Position numbers and translations under genes: made by a program
Source of the DNA: Martelella endophytica
GTDB taxonomy: Bacteria > Pseudomonadota > Alphaproteobacteria > Rhizobiales > Rhizobiaceae
DNA length: 64,000 nucleotides
NCBI RefSeq assembly: GCF_000960975.1
Contig: NZ_CP010803.1
Span: 2,259,944-2,323,943, forward strand
Direction of reading: 5' to 3'
Shown: positions 10,245-63,934 of the stretch, in pieces
Layout of the letters: every line of letters begins with the position of its first letter
Numbering within the stretch: the first letter of the stretch is position 1
Notes under the pieces: generated by a model
Databases searched by the model: none
Seen by the model: the letters and a program-made list of their open reading frames with translations, nothing else
Told to the model about the DNA's origin: nothing

Positions 10245-10262
10245 GGGGCGGATGTTTTCCGA

Positions 10263-10291
10263 TTGCAATTTTCCGGGCAAGCGGCTATCAA
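10263..10291 (+). promoter_or_regulatory. Sigma70-type promoter of the leu leader
   Basis: TTGCAA (10263-10268) and TATCAA (10286-10291) have a 17-bp spacer. Seven nt downstream is the A of the leader ATG (10298), so initiation there would give a leaderless mRNA. The layout is the same as at the trp leader in this window. Confidence 0.7.
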
Positions 10292-10297
10292 ACCGCC

Positions 10298-10411
10298 ATG
10301 ACCACGATTGCTGCACAGAACCCGGTTTCGATTTCGCGCGCTCCCGCGCCAGCCGTTCTGCGCGCCTCGCTCCTTCTTCTCGGCCTTATCCGCGGTTGCC
10401 GGGTCCTGTAA
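10298..10411 (+). CDS. leuL: Leucine-rich leader peptide upstream of leuA (37 aa)
   Basis: This short frame ends in RASLLLLGLIRGCRVL, with four consecutive Leu codons (CTC CTT CTT CTC) plus two more close by; 8 of its last 17 residues are Leu, Ile or Val. It lies just upstream of the gene for the first committed enzyme of leucine synthesis, as expected for a leucine-sensing attenuator peptide. The N-terminal half (MTTIAAQNPVSISRAPAPAV) is longer than in typical leaders. No Shine-Dalgarno fits; the predicted promoter places the 5' end on the ATG. I infer translation-dependent control of leuA. No experimental link is known to me for this sequence. Confidence 0.8.
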   Translation: MTTIAAQNPVSISRAPAPAVLRASLLLLGLIRGCRVL

Positions 10412-10456
10412 GGAGCGCCCGGCGGCCGGAAAGCCGCTCGGCACCAAGCGCTCCTT
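10368..10456 (+). promoter_or_regulatory. Alternative pairing elements of the leu attenuator
   Basis: The octamer CGCTCCTT occurs twice: at 10368-10375, inside the Leu codon run of the leader, and at 10449-10456. AAGGAGCG at 10410-10417, overlapping the leader stop, is complementary to both copies, so the two pairings exclude each other. The downstream one extends to 9 bp (AAGGAGCGC with GCGCTCCTT) and encloses an inner stem GCGGC (10422-10426) with GCCGC (10433-10437). A ribosome stalled on the Leu codons would mask the upstream copy. No U-rich terminator follows the structure, so the output (termination, antitermination or translation control) is not clear. Confidence 0.6.
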
Positions 10457-10534
10457 CATCCCACATATCGACGAAAACATGAGGACGGCAACGCCCGGAT
10501 TGCGCTTTGAGAGCGACCGGCAGCCGAGGACAAG

Positions 10535-63815: not shown

Positions 63816-63934
63816 AGCTGATGCAGTTGGTGCCCAACTTCTCCCTGGTGCACCGCAACAGCTGTTCCCCTCTGGAGGTTTTGAGAAGCCTTCTAACTCA
63901 AAAGGGCCCCGTTTCACGGTGGCCCTCTTTTTTT
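63816..63934 (+). ncRNA. Small trans-acting-type RNA with three hairpins (AbcR / alpha-r15-like candidate)
   Basis: A compact 119-nt unit is visible. Hairpin 1 (63816-63863): AGCTG with CAGCT, then GTTGGTGC with GCACC(GC)AAC, and a loop containing CTTCTCCCT. A single-stranded linker has TTCCCCTCTGG. Hairpin 2: TTTTGAG (63879-63885) with CTCAAAA (63897-63903). Hairpin 3 is a terminator: AGGGCCCCGT with ACGG(T)GGCCCT, then seven T. Two pyrimidine, anti-Shine-Dalgarno-like windows, the size and the order of elements match Hfq-dependent AbcR RNAs that repress ABC-transporter mRNAs in rhizobia. The family call rests on memory of the architecture, not on alignment. A tandem second copy, if any, lies beyond the window. 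Confidence 0.65.
63903..63934 (+). terminator. Rho-independent terminator of the small RNA
   Basis: A 10-bp stem with one bulged T (63920) and a TTC triloop is followed by TTTTTTT (63928-63934). It is one of the strongest terminators in the window and no coding gene ends before it. Confidence 0.92.

Follow-up and report, generated by a model that had tools for sequence, protein, structure and literature searches.

A probable leucine attenuator ahead of leuA in Martelella endophytica and its relatives that lacks a terminal U-tract

Does the DNA ahead of leuA in Martelella endophytica hold a leucine sensor and, if so, how could it act on leuA when no U-tract follows its last hairpin? We addressed this question in a stretch of 64,000 nucleotides of the genome (positions 2,259,944 to 2,323,943 of contig NZ_CP010803.1), hereafter the window, in which an original prediction made from the letters alone had placed a regulatory leader at 10263-10534. 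These coordinates fit the feature, and all of the elements that the prediction named were located in the sequence (Table 1). The leader ORF encodes MTTIAAQNPVSISRAPAPAVLRASLLLLGLIRGCRVL, with the LLLL run at 10370-10381. The gene under its control is presumed to be leuA, whose nearest named relative among the matches listed is that of Martelella limonii (90% identity; records very close to the window have possibly been omitted). From the comparisons below, we consider it likely that the leader is a ribosome-mediated leucine attenuator of leuA, and we infer both its response to leucine and a termination at hairpin 3:4, achieved either by the U-less (I-shaped) hairpin alone or together with Rho.

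Table 1. Position of the leader, its regulatory elements, and leuA in the window.
Feature	Coordinates	Strand	Remarks
Promoter-like box pair	10262..10290	+	-35 ATTGCA 10262-10267, 17-nt spacer, -10 CTATCA 10285-10290; from box comparison across loci
Leucine leader ORF	10298..10411	+	37 aa, probably leaderless; ATG 10298, stop TAA 10409-10411
Regulatory Leu codons	10370..10387	+	CTC CTT CTT CTC (Leu25-28) and CTT (Leu30); from codon count over 96 loci
Segment 1 (CTCGGC)	10379..10384	+	Can pair with GCCGGG 10398-10403 (helix 1:2)
CTTA tetramer	10385..10388	+	Starts 8 nt before segment 2
Segment 2 (CGGTTGCCGGG)	10393..10403	+	Within codons Arg32-Val36; 5' arm of helix 2:3, extended by TCC 10404-10406
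Segment 3 (AAGGAGCG 10410-10417 and CCCGGCGGCCG 10418-10428)	10410..10428	+	Partner of segment 2 or segment 4; overlaps the stop
Segment 4 (GCGCTCCTT)	10448..10456	+	3' arm of terminator-like hairpin 3:4
leuA, 2-isopropylmalate synthase, 568 aa	10535..12241	+	NCBIfam PRK03739.1 1.2e-262, leuA_yeast 9e-230

A scan of the leader against Rfam gave no family match at the gathering score and, at E-values up to 10, two chance-level matches only, both on the opposite strand; none of the NCBIfam models matched the leader of the window. The annotations of S. meliloti and R. leguminosarum list no protein-coding gene under the leader, in a gene table that is incomplete and holds protein-coding genes only. 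Elsewhere in the window, Rfam recognized the ar15 small RNA at 63816-63931 (88.2 bits).

To our sample of 25 loci, 80 were added that had been fetched by leuA alone (the best 80 of at least 592), and a Leu-rich leader was present in 79 of the 79 with upstream DNA (L102 has none). The claim of a leucine leader peptide ahead of leuA is therefore borne out, with an ORF of 37 codons that carries leucine at residues 25-28 and 30 in the window. The peptides usually end in LLLLGL(T/I)RGCRVx or LLLLGL(I/S)GDRRxR. From these 105 loci, 99 were placed by a strict script, which put L109 at a wrong site; L051, L060, L082, L104, and L109 were placed by hand, and L021 and L102 were dropped, leaving 103 loci. 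Distinct loci numbered 96 for the codon, promoter, energy, octamer, and CTTA counts, 97 for the T-runs, and 100 for the terminator finder. Alignment A1 comprises 88 of the 94 distinct cores, without the diverged L085, L103, L106, L107, and L108 and the misplaced L109. Among the loci collected, L181 lies on plasmid pSK03 (408 kb) of Rhizobium leguminosarum, where a ClpP-type protease gene, the benE transporter, the leader, and leuA stand together in the gene order of the window. Another locus, L180 (CP090106.1), comes from a 3.72-Mb record titled S. meliloti pSymB that has leuA and is probably a chromosome labelled as a plasmid.

A covariance search of leuA leaders in the Rhizobiaceae had been suggested as a check of the original prediction, and such a search, made with the model R1 (built from 47 sequences), found the leader in 39 of the 41 sampled genera of the family (window included); the two genera missed are represented by genomes of 2.0 and 1.1 Mb. 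Across the order, 23 of 297 genomes were matched, with 21 of the 22 new loci linked to leuA. The 23 matches comprise all but one of the 15 listed members of the window's family, counting the window itself (the exception, G567, is a genome of 1.5 Mb), eight genomes of one genus in another family (the ninth genome of that family, G046, gave no match), and the doubtful L179. Across the class, 12 of 385 were matched, window included, and among the other 11, six are leuA-linked (L117, L118, L121, L122, L125, and L126) and five are not. These scans were run with the stricter filters of Infernal, by which weak matches are lost. In four of the diverged leuA leaders outside the order (L117, L118, L122, and L125), a stem of 11-14 pairs built of different letters crosses the stop, and L121 and L126 did not pass the filter for a stop-spanning helix. 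The strict form of the leader is thus a trait of the family, with related forms that reach deeper. The leader ORF, the hairpins, and their position before leuA are far beyond chance.

When a crude filter was applied to 20 other loci of the class sample with leuA of the same type, L131, L132, L138, and L148 clearly showed a Leu-rich ORF and a stem across its stop; L128 was ambiguous and 15 loci had nothing clear. In the four loci, which are outside the order, the ORFs before leuA end in LTSPVL, LTRPTS, LIGPAS, or LRRPAS with a short hairpin over the stop, and they possibly represent a second type of leucine leader.

The leader ORF is probably translated from a leaderless mRNA. The promoter-like -10 box of the window ends 7 nt upstream of the leader ATG, which makes a leaderless start plausible, and a CTTGC-N17-CTATAA-like pair whose -10 box ends 7-8 nt ahead of the leader start was found in 81 of 96 loci by a script that considered only -10 boxes ending 1-10 nt from the start and picked the start by the best promoter score, a procedure that favours finding a promoter. 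Just 6 of the 96 loci have a Shine-Dalgarno-like motif ahead of the leader start, and a generic sigma-70 scan detected no promoter at this start in the window. The leaderless start suggested earlier from the promoter of the window is supported as likely. The trpL leader ORF of S. meliloti is likewise leaderless, as stated in a passage of PMC10117765.

At the five positions of the leucine run, the 96 loci hold 442 Leu codons, namely CTT 284, CTC 124, CTG 26, CTA 7, and TTG 1. In the coding sequences of leuA (3541 Leu codons), CTT accounts for 4.0%, CTC for 19.7%, and CTG for 63.4%, and since CTT dominates the run, the run is built on a rare codon; attenuators often use rare codons in the regulatory run. 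Segment 2 begins 16 nt upstream of the stop in 92 of 96 loci. With 12 nt covered ahead, a ribosome whose A site holds Leu25, 26, 27, or 28 would therefore reach no farther than 10391, immediately ahead of segment 2. In this geometry, all or part of segment 1 would be covered and segment 2 left free; helix 1:2 itself has no covariation. The CTTA tetramer is present in 95 of 96 loci though the codon that starts at its A encodes T in 44 of them, I in 33, S in 9, N in 7, and M and R in one each. It is conserved at the RNA level, codon context at the last Leu codon being one possible explanation. Pairing of CTTA with the stop codon was set aside on reading alone, since CTTA would pair with most stops and such pairing proves nothing.

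Around the stop codon, two mutually exclusive hairpins compete for segment 3: helix 2:3, in which segment 2 pairs with 10418-10428, and hairpin 3:4, in which AAGGAGCGC (10410-10418) pairs with GCGCTCCTT (10448-10456). The placement of a switch at the leader stop is supported; segment 3 overlaps the stop and is shared by both helices. Helix 2:3 has 11 pairs, with 99.9% of cells paired over 88 loci and 93.6% in the 3-pair extension, and its variable pairs are of the types GC 58/AU 30, UG 57/CG 30/UA 1, and UG 81/UA 4/CG 3. The covariation score of the helix with its extension was 0.186, against 0.154 (sd 0.004) in shuffled and at most 0.123 in slid versions, and 30 cells showed double changes against 11.4 in shuffles. 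A single pair (GC 58, AU 30) is altered on both sides, which is fewer than in shuffles (1 against 1.9), so that relatedness may account for part of the signal and the two-sided change may represent one event between lineages. Hairpin 3:4, taken with its four inner pairs, has five compensatory pairs against 1.6 in shuffles (2 of 500 reach five) and 35 cells with such changes against 12.9; the outer pair, for example, is GC 42/AU 30 in the 88 loci. Within the outer stem, the innermost pair fails to form in 25 of 87 loci, and the inner pairs are poorer, with 76.5% of cells paired and one pair formed in 23 of 86 loci. Helix 1:2 is the weakest of the three, with 94.3% of cells paired and no covariation above shuffles.

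In the window, the 2:3 stretch alone is predicted to fold at -26.7 kcal/mol (z -2.94) and the 3:4 stretch alone at -28.9 kcal/mol (z -3.81), compared with -7.9 kcal/mol (z -0.01) for the 1:2 stretch; folded whole, the leader (10318-10465) gains no stability over shuffles (z -0.95). Mean minimum free energies over 96 loci were nearly equal, at -25.7 kcal/mol for the 2:3 stretch and -26.1 kcal/mol for the 3:4 stretch. Synonymous recoding was uninformative for helix 2:3 (a median of 23% of variants were as good, and 6 of 96 loci fell below 5%) because the peptide itself imposes G-rich codons. In sum, two exclusive hairpins with a common arm are conserved and covary, the reservation being that helix 2:3 has a single two-sided pair.

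The original prediction had remarked that no U-tract follows, and this is confirmed. No T-run comes after segment 4 in the window (CATCCCAC), and a T-run of at least four within 18 nt after segment 4 occurs in 5 of 97 loci, at the level of the background (3.1%). Judged by this comparison, the absence of the U-tract is confirmed as old and common to the leuA leaders of the family. A canonical hairpin with a T-run was found in 31 of 31 ilvB loci (the genome of the window and 30 others of the family), which indicates that the lack is common to leuA leaders and not to ilvB leaders. As a control, trpE gave a hairpin with a T-run in 13 of 30 loci by the same rule, a weak result, perhaps since loops longer than 9 are missed. 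Of the 40 genomes that had a trpE match, 30 were read for this control, and of the 39 that had an ilvB match, 31 were read; a search yielded no more than 30 loci, and the window's own came in addition. The window also carries a trp attenuator at 2383-2500, with the leader MMNTMNNIANWWWAR (trpL 2383-2430) and, ahead of trpE(G), a hairpin that ends in six T's; this attenuator serves as an internal control with a U-tract, and the ilvB leader of the same genome (MIKTELLIVVGSRMGRMV; L113, about 1325-1437) has a hairpin with seven T's. A canonical terminator farther downstream was also sought, and among 100 loci the finder reported two, neither at 3:4: that of L020 lies about 105 nt past the stop, and that of L107 is an inner hairpin. 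This finder is blind to 3:4 itself because its loops are limited to 3-9, and the T-run count is the measure there. Set against the definition of an intrinsic terminator as a GC hairpin with a U-tract, the leuA leader has the hairpin and lacks the U-tract.

Comparison between loci thus supports the leader ORF, the rare-codon Leu run, the helices 2:3 and 3:4, and the absence of the U-tract, and the 2:3/3:4 arrangement is the plan of ribosome-mediated attenuation. The leader mRNA would begin at or beside the AUG. With ample leucine, the ribosome would pass the CUY Leu codons and segment 2 and reach the stop; segment 2 would then be unable to hold segment 3, hairpin 3:4 would form, and most transcripts would end there or shortly after. 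Under a shortage of charged tRNA-Leu, the ribosome would halt at Leu25-28, over all or part of segment 1, leaving segment 2 free; helix 2:3 would then form, 3:4 would be excluded, and RNA polymerase would continue into leuA. Hairpin 3:4 would end transcription either alone, as a U-less (I-shaped) terminator, or with Rho. Several observations stand against an attenuator, namely the missing U-tract, though every ilvB leader read in the same family has one, the lack of covariation in helix 1:2, the solitary two-sided pair in 2:3, and the z-score of the whole leader; in addition, a ribosome paused on the stop codon, which overlaps segment 3, would keep 3:4 from forming as well. Since one defining feature that was tested, the U-tract, fails, the leader is best described as a variant of the ribosome-mediated attenuator rather than a plain member, its anatomy being in agreement with that class.

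The switch originally proposed for this locus was a different one, in which stalling would hide the copy of CGCTCCTT within the Leu codons, so that a second copy could pair with the stop-codon segment. Both copies (10368-10375, in Ser24-Leu26, and 10449-10456) and their complement AAGGAGCG (10410-10417, overlying the stop) are present where they had been placed, and a triple of at least eight letters exists in one more locus, L017. The Leu run can pair with the stop segment (1:3) in 90.7% of cells, above any slid version (at most 73.5%), and the covariation score of this pairing was reached by 9 of 500 shuffles. However, a repeated octamer with its complement arises in 9.6% of 2000 dinucleotide shuffles of this stretch, exact copies of at least eight letters occur in 2 of 96 loci (the window and L017), and 57 of 96 share no stretch of even five. 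Over 88 loci, the 1:3 pairing fails at one of its positions in 24 and at a second position in 21, shows one double change in 698 cells, and gains nothing over synonymous recoding of the Leu run in most loci (a median of 35% of variants pair equally well; 12 of 96 loci fall below 5%). The proposal had been staked on conservation of both the octamer and the Leu run in relatives; the Leu run is conserved and the octamer is not. The competition of the two copies, which overlooks segment 2, the competitor that is conserved, is thus not borne out, and we rejected this switch as very improbable.

With regard to the output, the earlier guess that it may be translational implies that alternative structures govern access to the ribosome-binding site of leuA, a mode of control put forward for the LEU element of actinobacteria. 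The missing U-tract would suit such control, and segment 4 resembles an anti-Shine-Dalgarno sequence, which some of the predicted folds, when it is free, pair with the start region of leuA. The predicted effect, however, has the wrong sign for induction, as the accessibility of the leuA start is 0.478 in the 2:3 (starvation) state and 0.555 in the 3:4 state, and among the 86 loci scored (of 103, the 17 skipped including many of the GDRR type), 30 show a drop of more than 0.1 in the 2:3 state and 2 show a rise. Moreover, leuA starts about 145 nt (median) past the leader stop, and the sequences ahead of the candidate starts vary. Translational control by unmasking is accordingly not favoured and appears improbable, which leaves a U-less terminating hairpin or Rho. 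Methylosinus sporium, which we take to belong to the same order as the genome of the window, offers a precedent for the former. In that species, 78% of the strong hairpin 3' ends are at hairpins without U's, according to a section of PMC12403871. If instead Rho ends the transcript between the leader stop and leuA, the leader and the 2:3/3:4 switch would be the same and the hairpin would pause the polymerase or alter the RNA exposed. Consistent with this are the family-wide lack of a U-tract, the untranslated stretch of 105-255 nt between the leader stop and leuA (86 loci), the excess of C over G (29.8% against 22.3%) in the 60 nt after segment 4, and the DUF1127 uORF of S. meliloti, which attenuates presumably via Rho and without an intrinsic terminator (passages of PMC12218461). 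Yet the excess of C is modest, a purely rut-based switch needs no conserved 3:4 stem, and the pyrimidine-rich segment 4 would be hidden in the very state meant to terminate, so we regard this version as rather unlikely, if worth keeping in view. The leader transcript or peptide could also act in trans like rnTrpL/peTrpL of S. meliloti, a trpL precedent in the same family (extracts of PMC7298713), and this would partly explain why the core, CTTA included, is so unusually conserved. Against such a role, peptide residues vary where pairing in the RNA does not (GCR becomes DRR and GGR; also GAR) and, on visual comparison, genera resemble each other in the final part of the ORF only, which indicates a constraint on the RNA in cis; we give an additional action in trans little credence.

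Returning to the ribosome-mediated attenuator, a fuller reading would be that of a family-wide leucine attenuator with a classical 2:3/3:4 switch and a non-canonical output (Rho or U-less), whose sister ilvB leaders kept the U-tract and to which the near-invariant CUUA before segment 2 would add an undescribed element; we hold this tentatively, being almost evenly divided about it. If true, rhizobia and their relatives have a defined leucine control of leuA that is unlisted in Rfam and has no annotated gene in two relatives. The same genomes would carry two ribosome-controlled leaders, one with and one without a U-tract, which is conceivably a natural experiment on what replaces the U-tract.

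By its predicted elements, the leader resembles a classical leucine sensor minus the U-run, and almost every rhizobium or close relative in the sample has it. With the enterobacterial leu attenuator (leuL; Rfam RF00512 Leu_leader) it shares four adjacent Leu codons before leuA, exclusive hairpins, and the use of rare Leu codons, CUA in leuL. Here, in contrast, the run is of CUU/CUC, the U-tract is missing, the stop lies inside segment 3, the start is probably leaderless, and Rfam gives no match. A description of an alpha-proteobacterial leuA leader was not found in the titles, abstract openings, and passages of the open literature that were covered; Vitreschak et al. (2004) may list leuA, and the Caulobacter survey (PMC4117421) shows an ilv attenuator and has no word starting with "leu" in its main text. 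The alpha-proteobacterial ilvB leader (Vitreschak et al., 2004, as cited in a passage of PMC1273637) is a branched-chain leader peptide too, but it precedes another gene and has the U-tract terminator in all ilvB loci read here. Similarly, trpL of S. meliloti and the trpL and ilvB leaders of the window's genome consist of a leader ORF before a biosynthetic gene with a switch set by ribosome position, leaderless in S. meliloti trpL, and those of the window's genome end in a GC hairpin with T's (six in trp, seven in ilvB), whereas the leuA leader does not. With DUF1127 of S. meliloti, itself a rhizobium, attenuation also depends on a uORF and involves no intrinsic terminator, but there impaired translation is sensed via C-rich early codons, with neither a run of amino acid codons nor a 2:3/3:4 pair in passages of PMC12218461. 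Finally, the actinobacterial LEU element also has a leader ORF with a Leu run before leuA and is not a classical attenuator; it differs in that a pseudoknot forms and the Leu run pairs with the leuA Shine-Dalgarno sequence, as set out in portions of PMC1262725, whereas the 2:3 and 3:4 hairpins predicted here lie away from it.
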